This document shows, piece by piece, positions 47 to 58,271 of a DNA stretch of 64,000 nucleotides (the first letter of the stretch is position 1; each line of letters opens with the position of its first letter). The position numbers and the translations under genes were made by a program. This DNA comes from Owenia fusiformis (taxonomy: Eukaryota; Annelida; Polychaeta; Sabellida; Oweniidae). The stretch spans positions 7,833,555-7,897,554 of the forward strand of contig CAIIXF020000002.1 in the NCBI GenBank assembly GCA_903813345.2. Direction: 5' to 3'. The notes beneath the pieces were generated by a model, which saw nothing but the letters and a program-made list of their open reading frames with translations, made no database searches and was not told the DNA's origin.

Positions 47-3000
47 GTGAGTATAAGGGTCTTAATGAGACTATAGTCTCCATTAGTAGCTGCTTAGAAT
101 CAGTTGCTCATCTTATAATGTACAACCCCTCCCATAAATTTAGCAACTGTAAGTCTCCATGGGGTAATGTGTAAAAACTTCTTTGTTTGATTTTGAATCA
201 TAATTTTCAAGTTTCTCAATTACGAGAGATCGGACTTTGCTGTTATTGGCTCACACAGTGAGCCTATGGGATCGACCAGGCGTCCGTCCGTCCGTTGGTC
301 CGTCCGTCCGTCCGTCAACATTGGCCGCACAAATTAAAACTGCTATTCGAATTGAGTCGTACCCAAATTCATTTTATGCATATCCATAATGCCTATTTGA
401 CCTATCATCGCCATTTCCCAAGTTCACCCGGTTTCCGGGAAATTGCGGATTTTGACGTCAAAAGGTCAAATTTTCTGTAAATACTAGACACTTTGTTGAA
501 GTAGAACTTTCAAATAACTTTTAGTAGTTGTTGTATATGCAACTTATGTCCTCTGAAGATTTCAAAGCTCTTGGAATTACAGTTTTTGGTGTTTACTCTA
601 TAAAATTTGGCAAAAAGTAGGACTTAGTCATTTTCAGGAAACTTTCTCATGTATAAAGTCAATGGCAGGTTTTGTGATTGACAAGTTTCTCAAAGTTTGC
701 CTTATACTAGATCATTTCTTGCAATGAATTACATCATTACTAGATTTAAGCATTCCCTACATATTGCTCAATATATGTCAGCATCAAATTTTTACAGTTT
801 TTGAGATATATGACGTCAAAAAAACAGTAAAAATAAGTTATTTTTCAACTTGCTTCAATTTGACCAAATGTTTTTTAAAATCATCTACAAGTTGCCAGGA
901 GCTCAAATCTGACATTAGTTTTAGGATTTGACCTTTACTTGACCTTCAGTTACCTTTGAAAGGTCAAAAAAGTTCATTTTTCAAATTGATTTTTGGATGT
1001 AAATTTTGGTCAGCTTAATCACAAAAGACCTTACTGAGCTCTGAATAAGTCAAATTTTCAAGGTAAAAGGTCATCAAACTAGGTCACACAACTGTGTTTA
1101 TTTCTCAAAGTTCAAGACTACAAATCCAAATCAATATTTTTGTTTTAAAGTCAGGATATACATTCCTCTGAAGGTTCCAAACTGTGTGAGCACAGGACCG
1201 TGGGTCCTATTTTTTTTGAAATTGGCTTACATCATCAAGCTATTTTACATGCGGTCCAAAAGTTTGAGTTTGGCAAGCCAGACTTTTTGTTGGGAGTGTT
1301 TTTTTAAATATATAAAAGACAACTGGCTAGAAATATAGTAAACCATTTGTAATATTAATATCTAAAAAATCACAGATAGAAAAATGAAAAATATGTGTAA
1401 TACTATTGAGAAATGATGAAGTATTAATTATTATTGCATTTTATATTCCAGAGTATAAGTCTAGTCCATACATTACTAAGTCATCAGAATCTTACTAAGA
1501 TGAAGACGTGTCTAGTTGTGTACCCCCTTAATACAATACTCAACTGATACAACTATGTTTTATATTCCAGAGTATAAGTCTAGTCCATACATTACTAAGT
1601 CATCAGAATCTTACTAAGATGAAGACATGTCTAGTTGTGTGCCCCCTTAATACTACACTCAACTGATACAACTATGTTTTATATTCCAGAGTATAAGTCT
1701 AGTCCATACATTACTAAGTCATCAGAATCTTACTAAGATGAAGACATGTCTAGTTGTGTGCCCCCTTAATACTACACTCAACTGATACAACTATGTTTTA
1801 TATTCCAGAGTATAAGTCTTGTCCATACATTACTAAGTCATCAGAATCTAACTAAGATGAAGACGTGTCTAGTTGTGTGCCCCCTTAATACTACAGTAGA
1901 ACCTGTATATCTGAACACCTGGCTAAACCGAACACCTTCCAATTTGAACACTTTTTTCAGTCCCATTTTTTCCTCCCATTGACTCCCATGTTAAAAAAAC
2001 CTTGAAATCTGAACAGTGAACAACCAGATTTGAAAAACTGACCTGTCTAATTTGAACATTTATATCAGAAATCAAATGTCTGAACATTTCAATAATAGCC
2101 ACATATTGAGTCAATGTTATAGTTGTTATTTATCTTTACATACAATGTAATCAAAGCACCAATATTGTCCTTACTAATTTATTTAGTCTCAGAGACATCC
2201 CTAATTTGTGGAAAACAACAGGATGTTTTGGAAAGGTGTGAGTACAGGAGTTAATTGGTTTATCCTATTAGAAAAAAAACTGAATGTTTTATGTTTAAAT
2301 TAAGAGAAAGGTGTGAATCAAGAAGATAATTGGTTTATCATTATTAGAAATTACCTGGATGTTTTTGATTTAGATTAAGAGAAAGGTGTGAATCTGGGAG
2401 ATAATTGGTTTATCCTTATTGTAAATGAATTGGATGTTTTTGATTTGGATTTTGAACAGGTCCTAACTGTTTTATATCCCATGGGTCTGTTATGATAGCT
2501 AAGATTCAATCAGAAAATGTTTTATAATCACAAAGATAACACAGACACATTTGCAGACAAGATTGTATCACGAGAAAGAGAAAAAATTCAACCATAATGT
2601 GAGATAAGTCATTTGATTAGCATAAGATTTCGTACGAGACTATCATATACTTCTACAGTGTACTTCAAAATATAAAAGTTATTTTTACTAAAATAGTGAA
2701 ATTGTTCAAAATGTAAATAAAACATAGCTTATAGACTATAGGCATATTGTAGAATAAACACATCAACAACATGTATTGTTTTCTGACTTAGTATTAAGTG
2801 TTCAATATAGTGTACTGAACAATGAAAATCCCCCCCCCCCCCCGACCAACAAAATCCTCGAAATTTGAGCACCTGCCAATTTGAACGCTTTTGGCTGGTC
2901 CCATGGGTGTTCGGATTAGACAGGTTTTACTCTATACTCAACTGATACAACTATGTTTTATATTCCAGAGTATAAGTCTAGTCCATACATTACTAAGTCA

Positions 3001-33000: not shown

Positions 33001-36000
33001 AATTGAACTTTTTAATATACTGATGAACTTACAGCACATCACATACTATGTCCCAATTTGAAACATACTCATGAGCCAACTTTAACCTTTCAATGTAAGG
33101 ATGTACTTTGAACATCATAAATAACGCGCCAAATTGAACTATGATAATGCGCCAAATTGAACTTTTGATAAATAATTATGTGGCAGAAGTTGATGAAGAA
33201 CTTGGAGCACATCACATACCATGTCCCATTGAAACATACTCATGAGCCAAGTTTAACCTTTCAATGTAAGGATGTACTTTGAACATCATAAATAATGCGC
33301 CAAATTGAACTATGATAATGCGCCAAATTGAACTTTTTAATATACTGATGAACTTGGAGCACATCACATACTATGTCCAATTGAAACATACTCATGAGCC
33401 AACTTTAACCTTTCAATGTAAGGATGTACTTTGAACATCATAAATAACACGCCAAATTGAACTATGATAATGCGCCAAATTGAACTTTTGATAAATAATT
33501 ATGCGGCAGAAGTTGATGATGAACTTGGAGCACATCACATACTATGTCCCATTGAAACATACTCATGAGCCAAGTTTAACCTTTCGATGTAAGGATGTAC
33601 TTTGAACATCATAAATAACACGCCAAATTGAACTATGATAATGCGCCAAATTGAACTTTTTAATATACTGATGAATTTACAGCACATCACATACTATGTC
33701 CCAAATAGAAACATACTCATGAGCCAAGTTTAACCTTTCAATATAAGGATGTACTTTGAACATCATAAATAACGCGCCAAATTGAACTATGATAATGTGC
33801 CAAATTGAACTTTATAATATACTGATGAACTTGGAGCACATCACATACTATGTATGTCCCATTGAAACATACTCATGAGCCAAGTTTAACCTTTCAATGT
33901 AAGGATGTACTTTGAACATCATAAATAACGCGCCAAATGAACTATACTAATGCGCCAAATTGAACTTTTTAATATACTGATGAACTTGGAGCACATCACA
34001 TACTATGTCCCATTGAAACATACTCATGAGCCAAGTTAAACCTTTCAATGTAAGGATGTACTTTGAACATCATAAATAACGCGCCAAATTGAACTTTGAT
34101 AATGCGCCAAATTGAACTTTTTAATATACTGATGAACTTGGAGCACATCACATACTATGTCCCATTGAAACATACTCATGAGCCAAGTTTAACCTTTCAA
34201 TGTAAGGATGCACTTTGAACATCATGAATAACGCATCAAATTGAACTATGATAATGCGCCAAATTGAACTTTTTAATATACTGACGAACTTAGAGCATAT
34301 AACATACTATGTCCCAAATTGAAACATACTCATGAGCCAAGTTTAACCTTTCAATATAATGATGTATTTTGAACATCATAAATAATGCGCAAAATTGATG
34401 TACTAATGCGCCAAATTGAACTTTTTAATATAATGATGTACTTGAAGCACATCACATACTATATCCCAAATTGAAGCATACTCATGAGCCAAGTTTAACC
34501 TTTCATTGTAATGATGTACTTTGAACATCATAAATAATGCGCCAAATTGAACTATACTAATGCGCCAAATTGAGCTTTTTAATATATTGATGTATTTGGA
34601 GCACATCACATACTGTGTCCCGTTGAAACATACTCATGAGCCAAGTTTAACCTTTCAATGTAAGGATGTACTTTGAACATCATAAATAACGCGCCAAATT
34701 GAACTATGATAATGCGCCAAATTGAACTTTTTAATATACTGATGAAGTTAGAGCACATCACATACTATGTCCCAAATTGAAACATACTCATGAGCCAAGT
34801 TTAACCTTTCAATGTAAGAATGTACTTTGAACATCATGAATAACGCGCCAAATTGAACTATGATAATGCGCCAAATTGTACTTTTTAATATACTGATGAA
34901 CTTAGAGCATATAATATACTATACTATGTCCCAAATATACCAATACGCGATAACGTTTAATTTCGTTCAGTTTAGCAACCTCTCGTTTGAAGAGCTCTCA
35001 TGTATGGTACACCTCCATCTACATCCGGGTTCTTTCCCATTGGATTACACAGGGGTGCTATTTTCAATGCCGCACTGCGGCTCTATTAAACATTTATGTA
35101 GAGTTTCATTTGCACAAACGATAGGTATGTATGTAATTAAGATATATGACAAAGCAATTTGAGCTATAATCCCCAAATCCGAAGTAATGTGTAGTTAAAA
35201 ATGCCGTCCAATTCCAGTGACGTCACAGATATCCCAGAAATTGCTCAGACGCCATCGAATATCGAAAAATATAAATAATGTTACTTTGAATCTCCGATTA
35301 TCTTTCTGATTATTGAATAGATTGGATTATATAACTATGTTTGAGGGCTGATGGAAGATCAGAAGCTGAGAAACGTTCAGAGTAATCGACTCGTTCGGCA
35401 GGCCAATGAAAATTTGTCCCTTCCAAAGCGATGCATCATGGGAGATATTTATGTAAATTACCACCTGAACTCTTATCGCGAATAGGAGTATTGAAACATA
35501 CTCATGAGCCAAGTTTAACCTTTCAATATAATGATGTATTTTGAACATCATAAATAACGCGCCAAATTGAACTATACCAATGCGTGCACCAAATTGAACT
35601 TTTTAATATACTGATGAACTTAGAGCATGTCACAGACTATTCCCAAATTGAAACATACTCATAAGCCAAGTTTAACCTTTCAATACAAGGATGAACTTTG
35701 AACATAATAAATAGCGTGCCACATTGATCTATACTAACGCGCCAAATTGAACTTTTTAAAATACTGATGTACTTGGAGCACATGACATACTATGTCCCAT
35801 TGAAATATACTCATGAGCCAAGTTTAACCTTTCAATATAAGGATGTACTTTGAACATCATAAATAACGCGCCAAATTGAACTATGATAATGCGCCAAATT
35901 GAACTTTTTAATATACTGATGAACTTGGAGCACATCACATACTATGTCCAATTGAAACATACTCTTTCACTGTAAGGATGTACTTTGAACTTCATAAATA

Positions 36001-39000
36001 ATGCGCCAAATTGAACTATACTAATGCGCCAAATTGAACTTTTTAATATACTGATGTACCTTGAGCATATCACATACTTTGTCTCAAATTGAAACATACT
36101 CATGAGCCTAGTTTAACCTTTCACTGTTTCTTTCAACATTTGGGTAATAACTGTGGATTAAAGGTAAAGAAAAGTCATTTGTTAAAAATCAAAAAAATTA
36201 CTATTCAATGAGTTAATCGATTAATTCCAAATTTTAACACAATATTAATCACAGCAAGAGGGACACTGAAGAATCAAATAAATTAGAAAAACTTAATTTG
36301 CAAATTATTTTTCTGTGGAAATCAGAACCATCGGCTGTAGATATTAATCCTTTATTTCATAACAAACGGATTAGTTATCAGTGAACAAAACTTATGTCAT
36401 AGAAATTAATTACTTGGGGATTAAAGTTTTATTTATATTGCTCTGACATGTCAATACATGTATGAGATGGTGAAAAACTGCATGATCTTGAAAGAATTGT
36501 TGGCCAAGGGGAGGGGGTCGCTAGGTACGGGCCTGTATAAAATGCGTAATGTATTTAGCTGAATATTGAGCATTTTTGTGTCAAGACTGTTTTTTGTGGC
36601 TGACAAAGTGAATACAGGTGGTTGTGCCTGTGTAATATAAGAGGGGGATTTAAATGTCGTTTATTGTAACCTTGATGTGACAGACTGAGAGAAACAATAG
36701 AGTAAACATGTGAGGAAAACTTATTAATCAGGAATTAAAAAAAATATTTTTCCAATGAATTGATCGATTGAATCCAAATTTTAACACAATGATAATCATA
36801 ACATGGGGGATAATATACAATCAAATAGATATAAAAAACTTAATTTGCAAATTATTTTTTGTGGAACTTAGAATCGTTGCAATTTGGCTGTAGGAAATTA
36901 ATCCATTGACTCTAACAAACAGATTAGTTATCAGTGTTAACGAAACTCATTTTATAGAAATTGAATAATTAGGGATTAAAGTCTTACATGTACTTATCAT
37001 ATTGCTCTGACATAGCTGTATGTCCATACTGTATGTTATTTGCATCAGTTTGTTCTTCCATGCACCAATTTGCTCAAAAACATAATCATCAATTTGTCAG
37101 ATGAAACATTTGCAATAAATGTAAAATGCGCCCGTTTCTTTATTTGCATTATTACATTATCAACTAAACATACCGAATCTTGCACCTTTTGTATATGTAT
37201 ATATTGAAACGGAAAACAAAGAATGATTAATAAAACCAGCTGTTATAAACAGAAATGGTCCAATTCTAATGGAAATAATTTTATTGCACGGACTAATCTC
37301 TGTTGTTTATCACGGGTGTTTATCTCAGATATCATATGGATAATAGAAAATACATGAATTGTGAAATGTGAAAGAATACAAGTTTTAACTTTGTTTTAAT
37401 ATGGCTTAATACTAATTGTATCATTTACATAATGCATGTTATTTCCTAATTTATTATAAGTGATTTGTCTTTTATATTTCTTTTATATTACAGGCTCATA
37501 ATAAGTTTGAGCACAGGGGGACAATTTTCAAAACGTACCAAGGGGGTCAAAATTGATAATGTTGGCCAACAGATTGGTGAAAACTGTATGATTTTAAAAG
37601 AATCTTGGCAAGGGGGTGGGGGATTCACATGAACCCAACGACCCTCCCCCATGGCCACAGACCTATATCAAATGCGTGATGTATTGAGCTGAATATTTTT
37701 GCAATTTTGTGTTATATACGTTTAGTGTGGTTTGCGAAGTGAATAGTGGTCTTTGTTTGTGTCTGTGTAAGAGATGGCTTTAAATGTTGTTTGTTGTATT
37801 AAACTTAATGTTACAGAGAAACAATGGAGTTAAATTGTGAGGAAACCCCATAATTAAAAATCAAGAAATTACTTCCCAATGAGTTAATCGATTGAATCCA
37901 AATTTTAACACAATGTTAATCATAGCACGAGGTACACTATACAATCAAATAAATATGAAAAACTTAATTTGTATTTTTTGTGGAAATTAGAGCCATAGGC
38001 TGTAGAAATTAATCCATTAACTCTAACAAACAGATTATTTATCAGGGTGAACAAAACTCAATTCATAGAAATTGAATACTTAGGGATTAAGGTTTTACTA
38101 ATAACATTGCTCTGACATGTCAATACATGTATGTGAAAAACTGCATTTCTTTAAAGAATTGTTGGCCAGGGGAAGGGGGTCCTTAGGTACGGGCTTGTAT
38201 AAAATGCGTAATATATTAATTGAAATTAAGCAGTTCCGTGTCATGACTGTTTTTGGTTGGCAAAGTGAATAGAACAGGTGGTTGTTCGTGCCTGTATAAG
38301 AGGGGGATTTAAATGTTGTTTGTTGTAAACCTGATGTGACAGAGAAACAATAGAGTAAAAATGTGAGGAAAACGCATTAATTAAGAATAAAAAATTAACT
38401 TTCCAATGGATTGATCGATTGAATCCCAAATTTAACACAATCTTAATCATAAGTCGAGGGACGTTATTCAATCTAATAAATATGTAAAAACTTAATTTGC
38501 AAATAATTTTTTGAGAAATAAGAACCATCAGCTGTAGAAATTAATCCTAACAAACGGATTAATTAGTGTGAATGAAACTCATTTCATAGGAATGGAATAC
38601 TTAGGGATTAACGGCTCAAAAATAAACGCATATAATCCGGTTTTGATTGCAAATGCCAACATATTATTTGCTCCTGACTAGAATATTATTCTATATTATA
38701 TGGCATTATATGTTGTTCCCTTCAAATAATACACGAATGATATTATTAAAGAAAAATTAATTTTTAAAAATAGTTATTATATCTTATTCCACTATAATAC
38801 AGGAAATAACTGCTTACCATACAGGAAAAAATATGCTCTACGATTCCCTCTTATTGCAACTATATTAAACTTTTGATTCTATATTATTTTTACTTCAATA
38901 CCAAGTGAATTAGAAAATGTAACTTTCCACAGACTTAATGAAATGAATCCAAATTTTAACACGGTGTTAATTATAATTCGACTGTCATTGTCCAATTTAG

Positions 39001-42000
39001 TAAAAGTAAAAAGCTTAATTTATAAATGACTTTTTGATGGAAATTAGAACCCTCGGTTATAGAAATGACCAGATTAATCTGAACAAGCGAATTAATTAGC
39101 ATTGAAAACAAAATACATTCAATGCTGGACTTTGCTTTTAATCTGTTAAAACAACAAACTCGGGAACTGAAGCTATTACGTAATATCGCGTATAAGACGC
39201 GTATAGTTTGTTTTGAGGTAGAATAAGAGAAGAATAAGTCAAGTATAGTTTGATATAGTCTGTTTTTATTTAATATAAGTTGTTTTTCACCGCATATAGT
39301 AGGTTTGATTCCTACTTTGAGGCGTATAAGTGGAAAATAGTTCAGTAAAGATATACACTCTGCAATGATATATGCAACTTATTTTAGTTTATATGGGCGT
39401 ACCGGAGAGTATATCAGGACTTATATTAAAGTGTTCCGTTTTAAGGAATATGGGAGAAACTATTCTCGCCCATATTTTAGGTGAAATTCAAACTATATGG
39501 GGGTTATTCTAAAAAATAGTTTGCTATAGTACAAACTATATTTGGCTTTTTTCACAGTGTTGCTGGTGCCATGGGGGATAAAGTGTGAGTATAATAATAG
39601 ATGGAACTTAGTGGGATAGTTGATGCTTATGTTTGAGATTGTTAAACTGGCTGGAGCCATGGGGGATAAAGTGTGAGTATAATACAAGATGGAACTTAGT
39701 GGGATAGTTGATGCTTATGTTTGAGATTGTTAAACTGGCTGGTGCCATGGGGGATAAAGTGTGAGTATAATAATAGATGGAACTTAGTGGGATAGTTGAT
39801 GCTTATGTTTGAGATTGCTAAACTGGCTGGTGCCATGGGGGATAAAGTGTGAGTATAATACAAGATGGAACTTAGTGGGAAGTTGATACTTAAGTTTTAG
39901 ATTGTTAAGCTTGCTGGTGCCATGGGGGATAAAGTGTGAGTATAATACAAGATGGAACTTAGTGGGAAGTTGATACTTATGTTTGAGATTGTTAAACTGG
40001 CTGGTGCCATGGGGGATAAAGTGTGAGTATAATACAAGATGGAACTTAGTGGGAAGTTGATACTTAAGTTTTAGATTGTTAAGCTTGCTGGTGCCATGGG
40101 GGATAAAGTGTGAGTATAATACAAGATGGAACTTAGTGGGTAGTTGATGCTTATGTTTTAGATTGTTAAACTGGCTGGAGCCATGGGGGATAAAGTGTGA
40201 GTATAATACAAGATGGAACTTAGTGAGAAGTTGATGCTTATGTTTGAGATTGTTAAACTGGCTGGAGCCATGGGGGATAAAGTGTGAGTATAATACAAGA
40301 TGGAACTTAGTGAGAAGTTGATGCTTATGTTTGAGATTGTTAAACTGGCTGGAGCCATGGGGGATAAAGTGTGAGTATGATACGAAATGAGTAGGAAGTT
40401 TGTTTATGCAGGCATGTGCCACATTAAATCTTGTCATCAAAATCCAATGAAAATCACTTATCTGTTTAACCTGAAATTTGCAGATATAATAGCAGACAAG
40501 TGCCAATATCTGATTTGGTTTTGTGCATCCTGGCTAAATTTCTTGATGGATTTTATTATTTCAGTCTGGGGTTCAGTCAGAGCTTGCTGTTTTTAGATCT
40601 CATTGAAAGTTTCCTTGACCACATGCACAATCAGTCAGAGGAGATCATTTAACACATAGATGTACATTGATCTTATTGTATTTCAGTCAGGTCTTCAGTC
40701 AGAGCTTGCTCTCTTTAGATGTCATTAAAAGTTTCCTTGAACACATGTACAATCAGGAAGTGGAGATCATTTAACACATAGATGTACATTGATTGCATTG
40801 TATTTCAGTTTGGTGTTCAGTCAGAGCTTGCTGTTTTTAGATCTCATTGAAAGTTTCCTTGACCACATGCACAATCAGTCAGAGGAGATCATTTAACACA
40901 TAGATGTACATTGATCTTATTGTATTTCAGTCAGGTCTTCAGTCAGAGCTTGCTCTCTTTAGATGTCATTAAAAGTTTCCTTGAACACATGTACAATCAG
41001 GAAGTGGAGATCATTTAACACATAGATGTACATTGATTGCATTGTATTTCAGTTTGGTGTTCAGTCAGAGCTTGCTGTCTTTAGATCTCATTGAAAGTTT
41101 CCTTGAACACATGCACAATAAGGCAGAGGGGATCATTTAACACATAGATGTACATTGATTGTATTGTATTTCAGACTCGTGTTCAGTCAGAGCTTGCTGT
41201 CTTTAGATCTCATTGAAAGTTTCCTTGAACACATGCACAATCAGGCAGAGGAGAAGAATAAGAAGAAAAAGAAGGTAAGAGTTAACTCTTTGTTAGAGTG
41301 ATTGACTGTCTCACACTCTTTACATCAGTGAAGAATCCCTGAATTTCCCTCCCAATGAAATCAATTAAAATTTTGTTAATGAGGTTGATGAAACAATTTA
41401 TTCTGAAGGAGTTTGCAGATTTAGTGGGCTAGGGTAGTGGATTGCTACAAGTTAGGTGGAACTACTGTAGCCTAGGAGGTCGTGAGTGCCAGTCAATAAA
41501 GCCTTGACATAGATCTGAAAATAAATATCACACCCTTAACTACTGGATTGTCTTAAATAATCCATTATGGTATAAACATTAAGTATTTAAGAAAAAAAAC
41601 GATGATAAGAACTAAAAAAAACTAAACATTTTTGAAATACTGGAAATTTGGAAATTGTCTTCAGTAAACTTTATCAATTTGTAGACTCCAGCAATGAACA
41701 TGGAGAAATGGGAAAAGGGTAAAGATTACTACAGGTTTGATGGCTCAACCAATGCCAAACTAAGGAAGAAATACCAGCAAGAGTTCTCTAAGAACAAAAG
41801 GTAACATTTGATTCCTCACAATTTTCTTTGTAATAGTAGTATCATATTTGTATTATAATACTTTTTATTTTGAGCTATTAAGAAAAATGAAAGTGGAATT
41901 AAATTGACCAAATTTGAAAAATTGTATGCGCGTTTTTGCAATGTACCCACACACACCAGCCTCAATTTGGCATTGCTTTCAGAATTAAAAGCATGCCAAA

Positions 42001-45000
42001 TTCTGGTGCCAAATTGTCCCGAAGTGTTGTGTAACCTGAGAGAACCTAGATGTCCAGTCCACCTTAATTTTAAATTTCTTATTTTGCAGGGCTAGGCTGT
42101 TCTTGATTTCTACTAAGGCAGGTTCTCTAGGAATCAACTTAGACAAGGCAAACAGAGTTATTATATTTGATGCATCTTGGAACCCCTCCCATGACGTCCA
42201 GTCAATATTTAGAGTCTATAGGTTTGGGCAGGTCAAAGATGTCTTTGTATACAGATTCTTAGCTCAGGTATTCTAAATGTACAATTGTTTAACTTCAAAA
42301 AGATTAATGAAAGTTCATTGTTCATATAGTAAAACTAAAACAAGTTTCAACTTTCATGCACATTTTATGTTCATTACCTTTTGAATAGAGTATGATTTTC
42401 ATACAAGTGGTGACATGTTGTTCTAGTCTCCAACTTATTTTTGAACAGGGGTCGGCAGTTTGTGTTCAGTGATTGGTGTTCGGTATCTGTAACACATAGC
42501 AGGTGGTGACACTTTGCATGTTCAATTCCTTGTATTTCATTAGAGAGAGCTTCAGTGCACTGTCATTTGTAATGAACCTTGTTCTTTATTTGCCAAGGGT
42601 ACAATGGAGGAAAAATTCTGTGAAAGGCAAATAGAGAAACTCTCATTGTCACAACGTGTTATAGACAAACTCGAGATTGGAGGTCACTTTAATTTTAATG
42701 AATCCTTGTTCTAATTCCTTATGTAGGGTACTTTGGCGGAAAAGATCTATGAAAGGCAAATAGAGAAACTCTCATTGTCACAACGTGTTATAGACAAACT
42801 CGAGATTGGAGGTCACTTTAATTCCAATGAACCTTGTACTTAATTTGCCATGTAGGGTACAATCGAGGAAAAGATCTATGAAAGGCAAATAGAGAAACTC
42901 TCATTGTCACAACGTGTTATAGACAAACTCAAGATTGGAGGTCACTTTAATTCCAATGAACCTTGTATTTTATTTGCAATGTAGGGTACAATGGAGGAAA
43001 AGATCTATGAAAGGCAAATAGAGAAACTCTCATTGTCACAATGTGTTATAGACAAACTCGAGATTGGAGGTCACTTTAATTCCAATGAACCTTGTACTTT
43101 ATTTGCAATGTAGGGTACAATGGAGGAAAAGATCTATGAAAGGCAAATAGAGAAACTCTCACTGTCACAATGTGTTATAGACAAACTCAAGATTGGAGGT
43201 CACTTTAATTCCAATGAACCTTGTACTTTATTTGCAATGTAGGGTACAATGGAGGAAAAGATCTATGAAAGGCAAATAGAGAAACTCTCACTGTCACAAC
43301 GTGTTATAGACGAACACCAGATAGAACGTCACTTCAACTCTAATGATCTCAAAGAACTCTACAACTTCCAACCAGACAGGTTAGAGGATAAGAAAGAAAG
43401 ACCAGCACCCAAGTTACCAAAGGTACATACTAAATATTGTACAAATACTAGATGATCAGAAGCTGCATATGGCAGAACTGCCCCGCCCAATATTTTTTGG
43501 AGTAATTCTCTGAAATATGTTGCAACTGGAAGTTCCATTTTCACATATTTAACCAGATGTTGAAGCTCATCAATTTGTGATAATTCATGTTAGGTACCTC
43601 CTTTTCAGTGTCGCATTGTTTCAGAAAGATATATACACTAGTTCTGTTCATTATGTTTTGTAAATATTTTGATATATGTGTATGTTTCTATAGGATGTGA
43701 TATTAACAGAGATCTTAAAGAGTAAGAAAGACCATATAGTCAGCTACCAAGAACACGACTCCCTGTTGGAACATCTTGTTGAAGAGGAACTTAATGAAGA
43801 TGAAAGGAAAGCTGCTTGGGAGGAATATGAAAATGAGAAGAAAGGAATGATGAGATATGGTGGCTTTGGTGGTGAGTACAATTGACATTTTTATTTTTTT
43901 TATTTAGAACTCTTTTCTAGCACATGATAGGTCTTTTATATGCCATTGTGGTATCGATTGTGACAAGTTGCATGTTTTGTATATATTTTTTATGATAAAC
44001 AGATAAAATGTGGTGACTTTTACCCTTTGTAAGAGCTGGAATTCATTGGAAATGTATGTCATATTTTAACAAGATTATGCCATGTAACAAATTCATACCA
44101 TATAGATAATGCTGTTTAATAGTGACATTTGGTTCATTTAGTAACACCTGTATGCCATATAGGAATTCGTATATGATATATATTAACAAGTTTATGTTAT
44201 ATAGTAACTAGTTTACATAATATAGTTATTTCGTAAATTGCAGCAATAGGACAGAATCTTTCATCTGGGAACTCAGCATTTGGACTTCAACAGCTTCCAA
44301 GAGTTGTACAGGAGATACTCAAATATGTAAGTACAAAAAGACTCAAGTACTGAACAAATGACTCGCGTACTGTACAAAATAGACTCATGTACTGTACAAA
44401 AAGACTCACATACTGTACAAAAGGACTCGCATACTGTACAAAAAGACTTGTGTACTGTACAAAAAGACTCACGCACTGTACAAAAAGACTCACGTACTGT
44501 ACAAAAAGACTCATGTACTGTACAAAAAGTTACTGTCTAGTAAAACTATTACAGGCTATGGCGACAAACAATGACTAAAATCAAACTCAAATATGAACCC
44601 TGAAATCCATGAACAAATCATTAATTAAGTCATTGCACTAGAAATTTTTGTAATAAACTGCAATATGTTGTATTTGTTTCTTATTGCCTTCAAATGTAAT
44701 TTATTTGATATTTCAGAATCCTAATATTCCACCCCAGGAACTTCAAACAAGACTTCAAGCATTCCTCAAGTTGCAGACCCCTCAGGTAATAGTGCTTAGT
44801 TAAAAGGTGAATATTATGGCTATATGCCCTATGATATTCCAATATGCAATACCACAGCCTTGTAATGTTGCATTATATTGTAATAGAATATCAAGCATTC
44901 CTCAAGTTGCAGACCCCTCAGGTAATAATGCTTAGTTAAAAGGTGAATATTATGGCTATATGCCCTATGATATTCCAATATGCAATACCACAGCCTTGTA

Positions 45001-46492
45001 ATGTTGCATTATATTGTAATAGAATATCAAGCATTCCTCAAGTTGCAGACCCCTCAGGTAATAATGCTTAGTTAAATGGTGAATATTATGGCTATATGCC
45101 CGATGATATTCCAATATGCAATACCACAGCCTTGTAATGTTGCATTATATTGTAATAGAATATCAAGCATTCCTCAAGTTGCAGACCCCTCAGGTAATAA
45201 TGCTTAGTTAAAAGGTGAATATTATGGCTATATGGCATATGATATTCCAATATGCAATACCACAGCCTTGTAATGTTGCATTATATTGTAATAGAATATC
45301 CTCAAGTTGCAGACCCCTCAGGTAATAATGCTTAGTTAAAAGTTGAATATTATGGCTATATGCACTATGATATTCCAATATGCAATACCACAGCCTTGTA
45401 ATGTTGCATTATGTTGTAATAGAATATCAAGCATTCCTCAAGTTGCAGACCCCTCAGGTAATAATGCTTAGTTAAAAGGTGAATATTATGGCTATATGCC
45501 TTATGATATTCCAATATGCAATACCACAGCCTTGTTATGTTACATTATATTGCAAAAGAATATCAAGCATTCCTCAAGTTGCAGACCCCTCGGGTAATAA
45601 TGCTTAGTTAAAAGGTGAATATTATGGCTATATGCCCTATGATATTCCAATATTCAATACCAATGTTGCATTATATTGTAATAGAATATCAAGATAACAT
45701 CTTTAAATGTATGCTAATCACAGAAATATCACTGAATATATACAACTTTTAAAATTTTGTCAATGTGAATGAATTTTTAGTGTTTATTTTTAATTTCCAA
45801 AAGACCATGGATTTTTCACCCTTTTTTACCAATCTAGTTTATTATTGTGTTTTCAGCAAGGACTACAACAACGTCCTGTCCAATCATCTGCCTTCCCTGG
45901 TGGAAACTACCTCCGTGGTCCTCAGACTCAGGGTTTAGCCATTCAACCCCACCCATTATATAATACCCGATGATACCACCCATCTAATAAATTATAATGT
46001 TTTCAGCAAGTACTACAATAACGTCCTGTCCAATCATCTGCCTTCCCTGGTGGAAACTACCTCCCTGGTCCACAGACTCAGGGTGTAGCCATTCAAACCC
46101 ACCCATCATATAATACCCTATGATACCACCTATCTAATAAACTAGTATGTTTTCAGCAAGGACTACAACAACGTCCTGTCCAATCATCTGCCTTCCCTGG
46201 TGGAAACTACCTCCGTGGTCCTCAGACTCAGGGTGTAGCCATTCAGCCGCGCCCATCATATGCCACCACTACAATACCAAACCCGAACCTCATTGGAAAC
46301 CCACCTGTGAGAATTGGACAACCTGCAGTGTATAATCCAAGCACCCAGAATATCCTTCGTGTCAGCCAACCAGGTTTGCCATCACGGCTTCCTGGGGTAG
46401 GGACTATTCCAGGATTAGGTGTGGGACCAATGAACGTGATACGTGTCAATGCAAGTAATGGAACTGTGCAAGTAAATGGTGCAAGCAAATAG
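1..46492 (+). CDS. ATRX: ATRX-type SNF2 chromatin remodeller, C-terminal half (18 exons, partial at 5' end)
   Basis: ATP-dependent nuclear chromatin remodeller of the SNF2 superfamily. In vertebrates ATRX works with DAXX to deposit histone H3.3 at repeats and telomeres. Coding exons: 1-46, 3088-3228, 3675-3849, 4184-4321, 4528-4703, 5577-5734, 6017-6104, 28490-28647, 30108-30208, 30411-30567, 41175-41274, 41685-41800, 42090-42267, 43243-43422, 43694-43871, 44244-44326, 44717-44785, 46157-46492. All have GT/AG borders and matching phases, giving 858 residues plus stop. Helicase motifs in order: I MGLGKT, Ia [62 protein letters not shown] and [19 protein letters not shown] fit ATRX better than its paralogue RAD54L2/ARIP4. 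The ADD domain and motif-I upstream region lie outside the window. An acidic Ser/Glu spacer (exon 8) separates the two ATPase lobes as in human ATRX. The tail after the EEEL...AAWEEYE region is Gln/Pro/Gly-rich and not recognisably vertebrate-like. Six exons are bordered by tandem decoy arrays (see separate entries). Confidence 0.93.
248..1208. repeat. Hairpin-capped interspersed element with (GTCC)n start
   Basis: Begins with a perfect 7-bp hairpin, GGCTCAC-ACA-GTGAGCC (248-264), followed by a GTCC microsatellite at about 280-317. It ends with a perfect 6-bp hairpin, AGGACC-GTG-GGTCCT (1194-1208). GCTCACACAG also occurs inverted near both ends (250-259 and 1183-1192). No coding capacity. Layout resembles non-autonomous rolling-circle elements, but no CTRR terminus is visible, so the class is left open. 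Confidence 0.6.
1894..2932. mobile_element. Tigger/pogo-like non-autonomous DNA transposon (TA target)
   Basis: Left end CAGTAGAACCTGTATATCTG and the inverted right end AGTAAAACCTGTCTAATC are pogo/Tigger-style termini. TA flanks both sides (1892-1893 and 2933-2934). Excising the element plus one TA restores the host 119-bp unit exactly, so the borders are firm. No transposase frame. Contains a poly-C run (about 2829-2843) and an internal tandem repeat. Confidence 0.82.
2221..2452. repeat. Internal 60-76 bp tandem repeat in the Tigger-like element
   Basis: Three diverged units beginning at 2221, 2281 and 2357, with a partial fourth at 2432. They share GAAAGGTGTGA and TAATTGGTTTATC. Confidence 0.75.
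3088..3228 (+). CDS. ATRX: ATRX exon with motif Ia; last and only complete copy of a 119-bp array
   Basis: 47 codons in phase 0, starting SISLVHT and including [15 protein letters not shown], which matches the ATRX region after the P-loop. The acceptor is tatattccag and the donor gtaagt is at 3229. Five upstream copies of its first ~94 bp, with the same acceptor, lie at 1452-3087 but lack a donor. Confidence 0.92.
3293..3376 (+). repeat. Intronic dispersed repeat, copy 1
   Basis: Holds GGTGGTTGGTG, AACAAATGGCAGGTGGTG and ATTTTGCATATTCATGCCTTG. Related copies lie at about 3553, 5838, 29982 and 42395, all in ATRX introns and in the same orientation. Confidence 0.6.
3553..3655 (+). repeat. Intronic dispersed repeat, copy 2
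   Basis: TGTGGATGGTGGTTGGTG ... ACAAATGGGAGGTAGTGACA ... GCATATTAATGCCTTA, ending 20 bp before exon 3. Confidence 0.6.
3675..3849 (+). CDS. ATRX: ATRX exon, SNF2 N-lobe (GGVMVMGY)
   Basis: 58 codons plus one base between acceptor atattcag and donor gtatag. [27 protein letters not shown] and FEESLINP align with the human ATRX N-lobe between motifs Ia and II. The reading frame also stays open into both flanking introns. Confidence 0.92.
4184..4321 (+). CDS. ATRX: ATRX exon with motifs II and III ([12 protein letters not shown])
   Basis: Reads [15 protein letters not shown], then [25 protein letters not shown] is the Walker B/catalytic box. It enters in phase 1 and leaves with one base before gtgagt, completed to Tyr by the next exon. 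Confidence 0.95.
4528..4703 (+). CDS. ATRX: ATRX exon, SNF2 insertion region (YHCMVNF ... NGQC)
   Basis: Starts after cctgtag and encodes [28 protein letters not shown] and [17 protein letters not shown], co-linear with human ATRX. It ends on a whole codon before gtgagc. Confidence 0.94.
4774..5293. mobile_element. hAT-type MITE with 8-bp target duplication
   Basis: Terminal inverted repeat TAGGGATCCCACGAT at both ends, flanked by the direct 8-bp duplication ATAGGAAC (4766-4773 and 5294-5301), diagnostic of hAT transposition. 520 bp, no coding capacity, rich in ATCGAT-like motifs near the ends. Sits in the intron between ATRX exons 5 and 6. Confidence 0.88.
5577..5734 (+). CDS. ATRX: ATRX exon ([11 protein letters not shown])
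   Basis: 52 codons plus two bases. [18 protein letters not shown] matches the conserved ATRX stretch after CVQR. Acceptor gtttttag, donor gtaaaa. Confidence 0.92.
5838..5941 (+). repeat. Intronic dispersed repeat, copy 3
   Basis: GTGGACAGTGTTCAGAGGTT ... GGTGGTTGGTGTCTGTAACA ... GGCAGGTTGTGACATGTTAA. Lies upstream of exon 7. Confidence 0.55.
6017..6104 (+). CDS. ATRX: ATRX exon ([11 protein letters not shown])
   Basis: Encodes [21 protein letters not shown]..., the end of lobe 1. The donor gtaagt at 6105 opens a 22.4-kb intron. Confidence 0.92.
6130..6640 (+). repeat. Interspersed repeat copy, inverted relative to 54200-54680
   Basis: Shares long stretches with the reverse complement of 54200-54680, including TCAATAGACTAGATGCGAGT, GGGGAGATTCCCC-like sequence and CCACCTGGTGGTGAAACTGG. 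Ends undefined; no coding capacity. Confidence 0.65.
6641..8177. other. Intron sequence without recognised feature
   Basis: AT-rich intron of ATRX. Only a G-run (about 7148-7160) and poly-A/T tracts stand out. Confidence 0.5.
8178..8914 (-). CDS. Death-domain plus coiled-coil protein, 3' exon or gene fragment
   Basis: Read on the minus strand, the frame opens after an acceptor-like tttcattttcag ending at 8915 and runs to TGA at 8178-8180. The first ~75 residues resemble a Death domain: [19 protein letters not shown], then [24 protein letters not shown] and [20 protein letters not shown]. The next ~75 residues ([15 protein letters not shown] to SLEQKTASS) form a heptad-rich coiled coil. The end is Gly/Asn/Tyr-rich then basic. 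Death domains mediate homotypic assembly in apoptotic and innate immune signalling. No initiator or upstream exon was found, so this is either the last exon of an antisense gene nested in ATRX or a transposed remnant. The downstream ATG at 8741 is internal to the domain. Confidence 0.62.
8915..9244. other. Intron sequence without recognised feature
   Basis: AT-rich. Would lie immediately upstream of the death-domain exon on the minus strand; no further exon seen. Confidence 0.45.
9712..10000 (+). mobile_element. tRNA-derived SINE
   Basis: Starts with a tRNA-like head: A box TTAGCTTGGTGGTTAAGG at 9721 and B box GGTTCAAACCC at 9792-9802, the internal RNA polymerase III promoter. The intervening part cannot fold as a normal anticodon arm. 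A non-tRNA body of about 180 bp follows. The 3' limit is approximate. Confidence 0.75.
10139..11100 (+). mobile_element. Helitron-like non-autonomous element, copy 1
   Basis: 5' end TCCCATCGAACGAAGTTC preceded by A. 3' end has hairpin GCtACGC-tttg-GCGTtGC, then a short spacer and CTAG at 11097-11100 followed by T. These are the hallmarks of Helitrons: 5' TC, subterminal hairpin, 3' CTRR, insertion between A and T. The interior is a ~135-bp tandem repeat with AAAATGGCCGCCATTTT palindromes. No Rep/helicase gene. Confidence 0.75.
11442..12386. other. Intron sequence without recognised feature
   Basis: No exon or transposon end recognised. Short local palindromes occur around 11950-12000. Confidence 0.4.
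12387..13683. mobile_element. DNA element with ~70-bp terminal inverted repeats
   Basis: AGGTAACGCGGCGCAGTCAA at 12387 recurs inverted ending at 13683, and the match continues about 70 bp through GAGGCTGCAACG and AAAGACACAAAATGG. The interior has only short frames (12834-13100) with no family resemblance. Target duplication not seen. Confidence 0.7.
13684..15498. other. Intron sequence; one small inverted repeat
   Basis: Contains an inverted repeat at 14369-14490 (ATTATCCTATA...GGTTCA...GATAT) surrounding CCTCGGGACCTGCGGCCCTCGG-type palindromes, and a T-rich tract at 15440-15475. No gene recognised. Confidence 0.5.
15499..16198. mobile_element. Mariner-type palindromic MITE (TA target)
   Basis: Termini CGGCGTTCAATAAGTATTGC and the inverted CAGGGCGTTCAATAAGTATT lie next to TA on both sides (15497-15498, 16199-16200). 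Arms extend roughly 200 bp and include GGTTACTAAGGTAACC-like sequence. No transposase. Confidence 0.8.
16395..17822 (+). mobile_element. Helitron-like non-autonomous element, copy 2
   Basis: 5' TCCCACCGAACGAAGTTCG after A, a GTCC microsatellite at about 17011-17035, and ~145-bp internal tandem units (ATAACTCAAATACCAG... AAAATGGCGGCCATTTTTCG). 3' hairpin GCtACTC-cgtg-GAGTtGC then CTAG at 17819-17822. The segment at about 16450-16980 lacks the family repeats and may be an insertion. Confidence 0.68.
17832..17965. repeat. Short inverted-repeat element
   Basis: CAGCAGGAGATCCAA recurs inverted as TTGGATCTCCTGCTG about 130 bp later. Probably a small MITE. Confidence 0.5.
18246..21898 (-). pseudogene. 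Non-LTR retrotransposon (Jockey/CR1-type LINE) reverse transcriptase, 5'-truncated and broken
   Basis: Minus-strand reverse transcriptase. The segment before the polymerase is at 21482-21898. Palm motifs include [15 protein letters not shown] with [41 protein letters not shown] and the catalytic FADD (about 19068-19079), with a long C-terminal part at 18246-19019. Breaks: a TGA at 19095 between IYLSSP and LFFVLFADD, a frameshift near 19400, and a 1566-bp Helitron-like insertion at 19944-21509. The endonuclease domain is absent, as in typical 5'-truncated copies. Inactive remnant. Confidence 0.88.
19944..21509 (+). mobile_element. Helitron-like non-autonomous element, copy 3, nested in the LINE
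   Basis: 5' TCCCATCGAACGAAGTTCGG after A at 19943. GTCC microsatellite at 19983-20044. About nine tandem units with GGCGGCCATTTTGAAAAATG palindromes. 3' hairpin (ACG...CGT in a GCt...tGC frame), then CTGG at 21506-21509 followed by T. Removing it rejoins the LINE reading frame (...TFFHN / [10 protein letters not shown]...), which fixes both ends. Confidence 0.82.
21899..23656. other. Intron sequence without recognised feature
   Basis: AT-rich; no exon, repeat end or RNA gene recognised. Confidence 0.45.
23930..24020 (+). repeat. Inverted repeat copy flanking the second LINE
   Basis: GCAGTATGGCAAGTGATTTT through TATCTTTCACCATGAGTACT recurs inverted at 26590-26665. It may be part of the same older element. 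Confidence 0.6.
24029..25610 (-). pseudogene. Second non-LTR retrotransposon remnant (reverse transcriptase C-terminal half, zinc knuckle)
   Basis: The minus-strand frame at 24906-25586 starts in the palm ([20 protein letters not shown], then catalytic VADD) and continues through [12 protein letters not shown] second frame at 24148-24898 ends with a Cys/His motif, KKCKMCD...HYLLHC, typical of LINE C-termini. The frame changes around 24900 and at an N-run. An AATAAAC-type microsatellite at 24029-24055 is probably the LINE 3' tail. 5'-truncated and inactive. Confidence 0.82.
24723..24745. other. Assembly gap (23 N)
   Basis: Run of undetermined bases inside the second LINE. True length unknown. 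Confidence 0.99.
25945..26360. mobile_element. hAT-type MITE (CAGGGCTGTCAACT ends)
   Basis: CAGGGCTGTCAACT at 25945 pairs with AGTTGACAGGCCTG ending at 26360. Flanks share CATCCCC, fitting a 7-8 bp target duplication. Ends resemble Charlie-group hAT termini. Interior has GCGTGACA repeats and a G-run; no transposase. Confidence 0.7.
26580..26700 (-). repeat. Inverted repeat partner of 23930-24020
   Basis: Reverse complement shares GCAGTATGGCAAGTGATTTT and ATATCTTTCACC with the left copy. Confidence 0.6.
26788..27006. mobile_element. Short MITE with CACAGGGA ends
   Basis: CACAGGGAGATATGC and inverted CACAGGGATATATGC terminate a 219-bp segment rich in GAGTAC/AGTACT palindromes. Confidence 0.55.
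27070..27735. mobile_element. Inverted-repeat element with CTACGGC motifs
   Basis: CCCGGTCACATTT at the left and the inverted CCCAGTCACATTT at the right bound a relatively GC-rich segment with many TACGGC/GCCGTA motifs and short inverted matches. No frame. Confidence 0.5.
28042..28489. other. Intron end before ATRX exon 8
   Basis: T-rich sequence leading to the acceptor gattttatag; nothing else recognised. Confidence 0.5.
28490..28647 (+). CDS. ATRX: ATRX exon, acidic Ser/Glu-rich inter-lobe spacer
   Basis: In phase with exon 7 and encodes [20 protein letters not shown] followed by Ser/Glu/Asp-rich sequence, ending RKKRS. Low-complexity acidic spacer as found between the ATPase lobes of ATRX. 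Supported by acceptor, donor and phase rather than residue identity. Confidence 0.82.
28648..29235. other. Intron sequence without recognised feature
   Basis: Starts at the exon 8 donor gtaaaa; no repeat identified before 29236. Confidence 0.45.
29236..29915. mobile_element. Foldback element whose arms are 16-bp tandem repeats
   Basis: The left arm (29238-29338) is about six copies of CAACTCGTACCCAAGA. The right arm (about 29836-29915) is about five inverted copies (TCTTGGGTACGAGTTG). The terminal TCAACTCGTACCC is shared inverted at both outer ends. The ~500-bp interior is AT-rich and non-coding. Confidence 0.75.
29982..30078 (+). repeat. Intronic dispersed repeat, copy 4
   Basis: TTTTTGTGGATGGTGGTTGG ... 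CATCTGTAACAAATGGCAGG ... ATTTTGCATGTTATTGCCTT, ending 30 bp before exon 9. Confidence 0.6.
30108..30208 (+). CDS. ATRX: ATRX exon, basic linker
   Basis: Acceptor atttcag, donor gtaagt. Reads [18 protein letters not shown] and [13 protein letters not shown], in frame with both neighbours. Weakly conserved; assigned by phase continuity and borders. Confidence 0.8.
30411..30567 (+). CDS. ATRX: ATRX exon (PPPPWWEKF ... [16 protein letters not shown])
   Basis: Starts lobe 2. [18 protein letters not shown] and MGDKV match human ATRX (LEHSGKMVLLFEIL...GDKV). The first donor, gtgagt at 30568, is the one that keeps the frame. About 17 further copies of its last ~75 bp plus donor follow. Confidence 0.9.
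30568..31242 (+). repeat. 87-bp donor-side tandem array of ATRX exon 10, left part
   Basis: Units of ~75 bp exon 3' end plus gtgagtataa intron start recur at 87-bp spacing (ACAAGATGG at 30493, 30580, 30667, 30754, 30841, 30928, 31015, then 31102 and 31190). Every copy has the donor GATAAAGT|GTGAGT, and passing it gives GTG-TGA, a stop. Two variants alternate: GATGCTTATG...AAACTGGC and GATACTTAAG...AAGCTTGC. The last unit is split by the CACTA-like insertion. Confidence 0.93.
32100..36130. repeat. 152-bp satellite array inside the CACTA-like element
   Basis: Units carry CATACTCATGAGCCAAGTTT, AACCTTTCAATGTAAGGATG, ACTTTGAACATCATAAATAA and CGCCAAATTGAACT. Spacing is 152 bp in the regular part (for example 33961, 34113, 34265). 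A higher-order period of 328 bp occurs at 32202-32736, where two 207-bp stretches match exactly. All short frames here are by-products of the repeat. Confidence 0.9.
34930..35490. mobile_element. Insertion interrupting the satellite array
   Basis: About 560 bp of unrelated sequence separates two halves of a satellite unit. Ends show a short imperfect inverted repeat (ATAC...CGCGATAA on both sides). Contains CCAGTGACGTCAC; no convincing protein. Confidence 0.5.
36180..39110. repeat. ~525-550 bp repeats inside the CACTA-like element
   Basis: CCAAATTTTAACACAA-type anchors at about 36227, 36774, 37898, 38425 and 38949 head diverged units that also share TTAATTTGCAAATTATTTTT, TTGCTCTGACATGTCAATAC and AAAGAATTGTTGGCCA. 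One unit position (around 37100-37480) is replaced by other sequence. Confidence 0.75.
39560..40377 (+). repeat. 87-bp donor-side tandem array of ATRX exon 10, right part
   Basis: About nine to ten more copies of the same unit (ACAAGATGG at 39685, 39861, 39948, 40035, 40122, 40209, 40296, and AATAGATGG variants near 39598 and 39773). Same variant types as the left part, so the array predates the transposon. Ends at GTGTGAGTATGATACG. Confidence 0.92.
40378..40564. other. Intron sequence between donor-side and acceptor-side arrays
   Basis: 187 bp unique-looking sequence ending in the first decoy acceptor ttattatttcag. Confidence 0.5.
40565..41174 (+). repeat. 122-bp acceptor-side tandem array: five decoys before ATRX exon 11
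   Basis: Decoy exon starts after tttcag at 40565, 40687, 40809, 40931 and 41053, true exon at 41175; spacing is exactly 122 bp. Copies 1-2 and 3-4 form near-identical 244-bp dimers. Decoys read (V)-L-x-FSQSLL...LDLIESFL, then reach GAG-ATC-ATT-TAA, and lack a donor. Confidence 0.94.
41175..41274 (+). CDS. ATRX: ATRX exon with motif IV ([14 protein letters not shown]); last copy of a 122-bp array
   Basis: With the two bases from exon 10 it reads [23 protein letters not shown], matching ATRX motif IV, then a Lys-rich end. Donor gtaaga at 41275. Five upstream decoy copies at 122-bp spacing lack the Lys-rich end and the donor. Confidence 0.93.
41275..42089. other. Introns 11 and 12 around exon 41685-41800
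   Basis: Two short AT-rich introns (41275-41684 and 41801-42089) with nothing recognisable apart from splice sites. Confidence 0.5.
41685..41800 (+). CDS. ATRX: ATRX exon (YYRFDGST)
   Basis: Encodes [20 protein letters not shown] and RKKYQQEF, matching the lobe-2 YYRLDGST element of ATRX. Acceptor tttgtag, donor gtaaca. Confidence 0.94.
42090..42267 (+). CDS. ATRX: ATRX exon with motifs V and VI
   Basis: Contains [16 protein letters not shown] (motif V), [19 protein letters not shown] and VYRFGQ (motif VI, with the arginine fingers), ending YRFLAQ. This is a complete helicase C-terminal core, so the protein is expected to be catalytically active. Confidence 0.95.
42395..42530 (+). repeat. 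Intronic dispersed repeat, copy 5
   Basis: GTGACATGTTGTTCTAGTCT ... GGTGTTCGGTATCTGTAACA ... AGGTGGTGACACTTTGCATG, ending ~70 bp before the first decoy of the 129-bp array. Confidence 0.55.
42598..43242 (+). repeat. 129-bp acceptor-side tandem array: five decoys before ATRX exon 14
   Basis: Decoy starts (GGTACAATGG after an AG) at 42598, 42727, 42856, 42985 and 43114, true exon at 43243; spacing is exactly 129 bp. Decoys keep [20 protein letters not shown] then read [13 protein letters not shown] and end at the TAG that is itself the next acceptor (gcaatgtag). The true exon reads [13 protein letters not shown] instead. Confidence 0.94.
43243..43422 (+). CDS. ATRX: ATRX exon ([11 protein letters not shown]); last copy of a 129-bp array
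   Basis: 60 codons in phase 0: [20 protein letters not shown], then [18 protein letters not shown], matching ATRX after motif VI. Five upstream partial copies diverge from it after VID. Confidence 0.93.
43694..43871 (+). CDS. ATRX: ATRX exon ([10 protein letters not shown] ... AAWEEYE)
   Basis: Encodes [24 protein letters not shown] and [15 protein letters not shown], near-identical in layout to human ATRX (GYHEHDSLLDH...ERKAAWAEYEAEKKG). Ends GFG plus one base before gtgagt. Confidence 0.94.
44244..44326 (+). CDS. ATRX: ATRX exon, C-terminal tail 1
   Basis: Acceptor attgcag, donor gtaagt. Reads [20 protein letters not shown] and VVQEILKY. In phase; conservation in the tail is low. Confidence 0.82.
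44338..44530. repeat. 21-bp minisatellite just after the exon 16 donor
   Basis: About nine copies of ACTGTACAAAAAGACTCACGT. The first unit begins within the donor region (gtaagtacaaaaagactc). Every short frame here is a repeat artefact. Confidence 0.9.
44717..44785 (+). CDS. ATRX: ATRX exon, C-terminal tail 2; first copy of a 136-bp donor array
   Basis: 23 codons, [20 protein letters not shown] then TPQ, flanked by tttcag and gtaata. Gln-rich. Its last ~30 bp plus donor recur downstream. Confidence 0.82.
44786..45690 (+). repeat. 136-bp donor-side tandem array after ATRX exon 17
   Basis: Units begin CAAGCATTCCTCAAGTTGCA at 44756 (true exon), 44892, 45028, 45164, 45300 (8-bp deletion), 45428 and 45564, spaced 136 bp (128 after the deletion). 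Each has the donor CCTCAG|GTAATA (GGGTAATA in the last). The frame stops at TTAGTTAA shortly after the donor. Confidence 0.93.
45857..46156 (+). repeat. 150-bp acceptor-side tandem array: two decoys of the ATRX terminal exon
   Basis: Exon starts after gttttcag at 45857 and 46007, true one at 46157, spacing exactly 150 bp. Decoy 1 reads [20 protein letters not shown] and further, then TGA. Decoy 2 has CAA-TAA after four codons. Confidence 0.93.
46157..46492 (+). CDS. ATRX: ATRX terminal exon with stop
   Basis: 111 codons then TAG at 46490. Gln/Pro/Gly-rich tail ([20 protein letters not shown] ... [15 protein letters not shown]). It is the third copy of a 150-bp repeat and the only one that stays open beyond QPRPSY. 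Confidence 0.86.
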   Translation, partial: QGLQQRPVQSSAFPGGNYLRGPQTQGVAIQPRPSYATTTIPNPNLIGNPPVRIGQPAVYNPSTQNILRVSQPGLPSRLPGVGTIPGLGVGPMNVIRVNASNGTVQVNGASK

Positions 46493-58195: not shown

Positions 58196-58271
58196 CATAC
58201 TCATAATCAAATTGAGCTAAAGGTACTTCGCGGCACTGTGTGATTTAATCTTTCCGTGACGAATTAAAAAA

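Follow-up and report, generated by a model that had tools for sequence, protein, structure and literature searches.

Tandem arrays in which the repeated unit straddles an exon/intron boundary are known from amphioxus, where they have been named mirages. They have been described in Adh3, the globin genes BflGb6 and BflGb9, PGBD5 and troponin C (PMC3087553, PMC3902484). In these genes the unit lies across either the acceptor or the donor side of an intron (PMC3087553), measures 150-160 and 157 bp in the globins and 60 and 108 bp in PGBD5, and varies in copy number, and the units at the array edges retain their identity. Results of reverse transcription polymerase chain reaction (RT-PCR) reportedly suggest that the globin mirages leave regular splicing undisturbed (PMC3087553; also PMC3902484). 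The present analysis concerns a stretch of 64,000 nucleotides from the annelid Owenia fusiformis (assembly GCA_903813345.2, contig CAIIXF020000002.1, positions 7,833,555 to 7,897,554 of the forward strand), called the window below, in which a gene for the transcriptional regulator ATRX carries six arrays of the same design and of similar unit length. Arrays like these were also found at the exon edges of other genes of this genome.

Two other systems share part of this design. In human segmental duplications, internal tandem repeats likewise fall at exon-intron boundaries and differ in copy number between paralogues, but the units average 30 bp and are often kept in transcripts or form new introns, and half of the variable repeats lie within coding sequence (PMC2812944). 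In potato, a tandem genomic duplication is reported that copies a splice signal, as here, but makes a new intron, whereas here an existing intron gains extra copies of one of its ends (PMC4974935). Among the matches listed in the open-licence literature, none showed arrays of this kind in an annelid, and a search aimed at such repeats at the splice sites of Owenia found no paper. The annelid arrays are judged to belong with the amphioxus mirages, the nearest known kind, and a first rough frequency can be given for them. Beyond their occurrence in an annelid, they differ from the amphioxus cases in having been counted in a sample (nine of 83 regions) and found in excess at junctions; and whereas splicing in amphioxus was followed by RT-PCR, the annelid arrays are described from genomic sequence.

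The six arrays of the window's ATRX gene have units of 119 bp (six copies), 87 bp (18), 122 bp (six), 129 bp (six), 136 bp (seven) and 150 bp (three). They were located with Tandem Repeats Finder (TRF) and by direct reading, and copies were counted by stepping from junction to junction, which misses any copy with more than 11 mismatches in the 32 positions around the junction. Units, copy numbers and splice-site types all agree with a preliminary description of the window. Each unit holds one junction and part of one exon, and its splice site belongs to an intron that runs on past the array. The real copy lies on the exon side in the units read at all 18 distinct junctions of the full catalogue. 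In the four acceptor arrays of the window (119, 122, 129 and 150 bp) the real copy is last, and in the two donor arrays (87 and 136 bp) it is first. The preliminary description had stressed that only the outermost copy is joined to the rest of the exon; this is true, but it adds no evidence, being inevitable for any tandem unit with one junction.

All six arrays lie on the forward strand. The 119-bp acceptor array opens with four decoys (1439-1895, junctions at 1452, 1571, 1690 and 1809), is interrupted by an insert of about 1 kb (1896-2933) whose ends are imperfect inverted repeats, and resumes with copies 5 and 6 (2934-3182), a decoy at 2969 and the real acceptor at 3088, which leads into the exon SISLVHTLL. 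The 87-bp donor array begins with copies 1 to 8 (30489-31237), its real donor at 30568 closing an exon that ends in MGDK; an insert of about 8.3 kb follows (31238-39561), and then copies 9 to 18 (39562-40383), all of them decoys. This larger insert has terminal inverted repeats that start with CACTG (CACTGTG), with TTG flanking it on either side, features typical of CACTA elements, and it contains a 152-bp array whose unit belongs to a dispersed family with 550 matches in the genome. The 122-bp acceptor array (40557-41254, six copies) has its real acceptor at 41175, the 129-bp acceptor array (42571-43346, six copies) at 43243. The 136-bp donor array (44755-45662, seven copies) has its real donor at 44786, and the 150-bp acceptor array (45841-46261, three copies) ends with the real acceptor at 46157, before the last coding exon and a stop codon near 46490. 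The identity of the gene is given by a peptide joined from eight exon translations, whose best match is the solved chain 9l06_K, 'Transcriptional regulator ATRX' (E 4e-158), and by SNF2 family (Pfam) matches in the first 15 kb of the window.

Junction-spanning arrays are not confined to ATRX. A family search for SNF2 brought up a gene that we take to be ISWI, with a 137-bp array of five copies, four decoys and the real exon, and a search for kinesins brought up a 159-bp acceptor array of 18 copies. A sample chosen blind to arrays provided a frequency: 97 exon-centred loci from four gene families, which overlap where they belong to one gene and merge into 83 distinct regions of 163,566 bases. 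Sixty-six loci were obtained by taking one row in four from the match lists for SNF2, myosin and kinesin, with 700 bp on either side, and 31 by taking roughly one in three of the short rows for kinases, from row 21 on, with 1000 bp on either side. Rows skipped in the first three lists were decoys, the window's ATRX gene, candidate alternative myosin exons and the ISWI array exon; in the kinase list, they were matches of at least 450 bp and two apparent near relatives of one already taken, and one overlapping row was exchanged for its neighbour. A long-unit array was defined by a TRF period of at least 60 and a primitive unit of at least 50, which dropped L025, L086 and L093, all multiples of 26-32 bp units; L061, which touches the edge of the kinesin array, was left out of the count.

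TRF found 15 long-unit arrays in this sample, and ten of them span a junction, in nine of the 83 regions or about one in nine. They lie in L034, L044, L047, L049 (the same as L070), L051, L066, L073, L097 and L077, the last of which has two, at both ends of one exon; those in L034, L047, L051 and L097 extend past the stretch read. Three of the other five (L072, L087 and L091) are dispersed repeats, and the remaining two (L039 and L075) have no other match among the sequences compared, the L029 match of L039 being the same place. No shorter-period array spanned a junction among the subset read. The preliminary description had left the choice between a process specific to ATRX and a wider one; the ten sampled arrays, together with the ISWI-like and kinesin genes, contradict the former and support a process that is not confined to this gene. 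In total, 22 arrays were catalogued at 18 distinct junctions, 12 acceptor and six donor, with two adjacent ATRX copies counted apart, and boundaries of both kinds, 5' and 3', are therefore affected. ATRX, with six arrays among an estimated 30 or so junctions, is in the tail of this distribution and was picked because of its arrays.

A comparison with random placement was run on the 97-locus sample. Each array was collapsed to one unit and placed at random within its locus, with junctions per locus read for some loci and otherwise assumed to be four (once six). The ten junction-spanning arrays among the 15 compare with 3.5 expected (P 3.5e-4), and with the three dispersed arrays removed, ten of 12 compare with 2.75 (P 1.6e-5). 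The junction arrays of ATRX are also judged to be more than chance. As a control for intron interiors, 59.2 kb between exon matches were examined at seven places, where exons are not annotated. The long arrays there mostly match other loci compared or are composites of short units, and such composites were left out (L106, 80 bp; L108, 89 bp; L109, 63 bp). Local intron-only arrays thus exist, yet in the sample they are rarer than junction arrays.

The junction units are themselves local as far as they were compared. A genome-wide search found the 136-bp unit only in the two ATRX copies; for the remaining units, every match among the sequences compared lies at the unit's own locus, in the other copy of ATRX or in a related gene. 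In these comparisons the units are not found at many places of the genome, as those of a dispersed satellite or transposon would be. The window's 75-, 135- and 144-bp arrays do match other loci among the sequences compared, and a weak 65-bp array of 2.0 copies (16750-16879) lies outside the dispersal comparison. Nor do the arrays consist of alternative, mutually exclusive exons, in which each copy would be an entire exon flanked by its two splice sites. Units of the 12 acceptor arrays contain little intron, about 13-54 nt and never more than half of the unit (Kolmogorov-Smirnov test against uniform, p 0.003, with values estimated by reading and compared post hoc). The six donor arrays lack this pattern, the unit minus its exon part ranging from about 8 to 105 nt.

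Turnover of the arrays is visible in a second ATRX copy (A), situated immediately upstream of the one in the window (B), at about 7.806-7.832 Mb of the same contig (C2). The two share long BLAST stretches, mostly 85-95% identical (G000:C2:7806000-7882000). Five of the six B arrays are also arrays in A, and the 136-bp junction is single-copy there. In the order 119, 87, 122, 129, 136 and 150 bp, A has 4, 6, 2, 2, 1 and 4 units against 6, 18, 6, 6, 7 and 3 in B. The arrays are thus unstable in length, with unequal numbers at six of six junctions between gene copies that could be alleles. The weight that the preliminary description had given to three arrays of exactly six copies is lost, because all six copy numbers differ between A and B; A has 4, 2 and 2 units at those junctions. 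Neither insert is present in A, where the four 119-bp and the six 87-bp units are contiguous. Trees of the units join the intron-edge unit of A to that of B in the 119-, 122- and 150-bp arrays, and do the same for the real units in the 122- and 150-bp arrays; for the 87-bp array, such an edge pair is poorly supported. At least the 119-, 122- and 150-bp arrays therefore predate the split of A and B. The two copies may be diverged haplotypes placed side by side rather than a true duplication, in which case the differences in copy number would be between alleles. They also differ in a 21-bp minisatellite within an ATRX intron, with about nine copies in B (window 44331-44529) and about 20 in A (L003:4828-5254).

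The arrays are probably minisatellites of the mirage type, a kind that the preliminary description had not considered, and this reading combines duplication across a junction, repeat turnover and tolerance through exon definition. A short tandem duplication would happen to include one exon/intron junction, and the array so formed would expand and contract by ordinary minisatellite turnover. The protein would be unchanged provided that splicing keeps using the copy beside the full exon. In exon definition, the winner is the copy that finds a partner in the other splice site across the exon. Such a partner exists only for the copy beside the full exon, so that exon definition would pick that copy and leave the decoys in the intron. 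Duplications that fell within an exon, or took in all of it, would alter the protein and be lost. We infer that the arrays are tolerated in this way and that messenger RNA is spliced normally across them. The excess at junctions goes beyond what tolerance explains, because an array wholly inside an intron should be no less tolerable, and a bias of new duplications toward exons or splice junctions would be the simplest addition.

A simpler origin would have arrays arise uniformly along genes, with purifying selection removing those inside exons, so that the remainder merely looks junction-centred. No in-exon long-unit array was noticed in the array loci read, the splice site of the real copy is complete, as it would have to be under selection, and local long arrays do occur in introns. 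Such an origin predicts, however, more local intron-only arrays than junction arrays, with the ratio following intron length, and the 83 regions hold ten junction arrays against two intron-only ones without dispersal seen (five with dispersed repeats). Over 2 to 5 assumed junctions per region, the probability of this outcome runs from 4e-9 to 6e-4 and the rate ratio from 47 to 6, and the intron-interior control has 3 arrays without dispersal seen in 59 kb. Uniform origin is accordingly unlikely. Selection against in-exon arrays accounts for part of the pattern, as the preliminary description had allowed, and for part only, because it leaves the rarity of local intron-only arrays relative to junction arrays unexplained. 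False expansion of junction sequence during assembly is far less credible still. The adjacent ATRX copies could be uncollapsed haplotypes, but units differ from one another within most arrays, arrays of B, but none of A, are interrupted by two inserts that are unlike each other, and the 18 distinct junctions have different units. The gain of an intron when an exon segment that contains an AGGT proto-splice site is duplicated in tandem is the same class of event; a model of this sort was proposed for amphioxus mirages (PMC3087553) and a case is reported in potato (PMC4974935). It would yield a new intron with both splice sites within the copies, whereas each ATRX unit provides a single splice site, and the intron to which this belongs extends past the array. 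An exon with GLGKT is present in both A and B, and a third ATRX-like gene (L004, C2:21.84 Mb) has the homologous exon; TRF found no such array within the 10 kb read there. Intron gain is thus very improbable here.

Selection might also maintain the decoys, either for redundancy of splice sites or as poison sites, with nonsense-mediated decay as the means of tuning expression. The AG or GT is intact in 99 of 99 decoys examined in the 22 arrays, in a count that would have missed a badly damaged junction copy; in the amphioxus mirages, many but not all are intact. Use of a decoy would meet a stop inside the array in 22 of 22 cases, on entering the first available decoy acceptor or reading past the first donor, with reading frames assigned from protein similarity. 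The preliminary description had noted such stops, and they are found in all six arrays of the window. Among inner decoys, columns of the splice core are variable in 5 of 185 cases against 174 of 1856 other columns (p 9e-4), and of the 101 columns that differ in the exon part of decoys, 42 show synonymous change where 27.9 would be expected (p 0.0025). The first of these results depends on the 87-bp array of B, in which the copies beside the insert misalign. When that array is removed, the splice core gives p 0.02 against all other columns and 0.15 against exon columns, and AG/GT alone (0/36) gives p 0.11. The synonymous excess is expected either from weak constraint on decoys or from re-seeding of decoys by the real copy, and at the 136-bp junction ATRX A has no decoy at all, only the one copy. 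The case for selection on the decoys, which the preliminary description had named as one option (splice-site redundancy or poison exons), is suggestive and not robust, since the conservation of their splice sites loses its significance once the 87-bp array of B is set aside and the comparison is with exon columns. As the explanation of the arrays, it is improbable.

Mirage-type minisatellites remain the preferred reading, and several observations count against it or against its parts. The sample is limited to four gene families, and the null model for the excess is partly assumed in its junction counts. Long intron arrays without dispersal seen occur at L039 (83% match) and L075 (73%), and in the control at L109 (73 bp, 2.1 copies) and twice in L110 (159 bp), where the comparison stopped short of genome-wide. 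In unit trees the real 119-bp units of A and B are unpaired. Distances between 119-bp units are 0.054 within a gene copy and 0.056 between copies, no closer within, and for the 87-, 122- and 150-bp units the within-copy distance is larger than that between A and B. Homogenisation of inner units, described for amphioxus, is therefore unsupported here. Normal splicing at the arrays is predicted from the DNA, and a bias of new duplications toward junctions is postulated.

What could produce such a bias can be stated only tentatively. A process tied to transcription or splicing may preferentially make small tandem duplications at exon edges in this lineage, for example when replication meets a polymerase or spliceosome paused at splice sites. 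This would constitute a genome-wide mutational hotspot on splice junctions, possibly shared with amphioxus, with the decoys as its visible record. The short intron part of acceptor units is in keeping with a hotspot at exon edges, a feature that the donor arrays do not show. We consider this extension possible and, on present evidence, doubtful.

Some further features were noted in passing. Two 16-bp arrays about 500 bp apart (window 29243-29338 and 29835-29913) are reverse complements of one another and resemble the repeats found near the ends of small transposons. At window 58260-59228, one open frame with about 323 codons may encode an alpha-1,2-fucosyltransferase. Elsewhere in the genome, about a dozen myosin head exon matches at G000:C9:37986009-37994334 cover nearly identical positions (about 18-84) at spacings of hundreds of bases or more, and form a candidate cluster of alternative exons. 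The genome also has three matches (best E 5e-7) to Eryth_link_C, a family specific to annelids, and a search for mitochondrial COX1 gave no match. At G000:C10:2256896-2257205, two kinase exon matches with a near-identical profile range lie 178 bp apart, and TRF called no tandem array there.

If junction arrays are as common in this annelid as the sample suggests, and are present in amphioxus as well, they would be no cephalochordate oddity and would represent a recurrent mode of animal gene variation. They would then offer, on a large scale, a natural experiment on how splicing chooses among sites that are almost the same; they might also give rise to new introns, and they would be a trap for annotators of genes. 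Their concentration at junctions would suggest mutation by a process coupled to transcription or splicing, a proposal that can be tested with public genomes.
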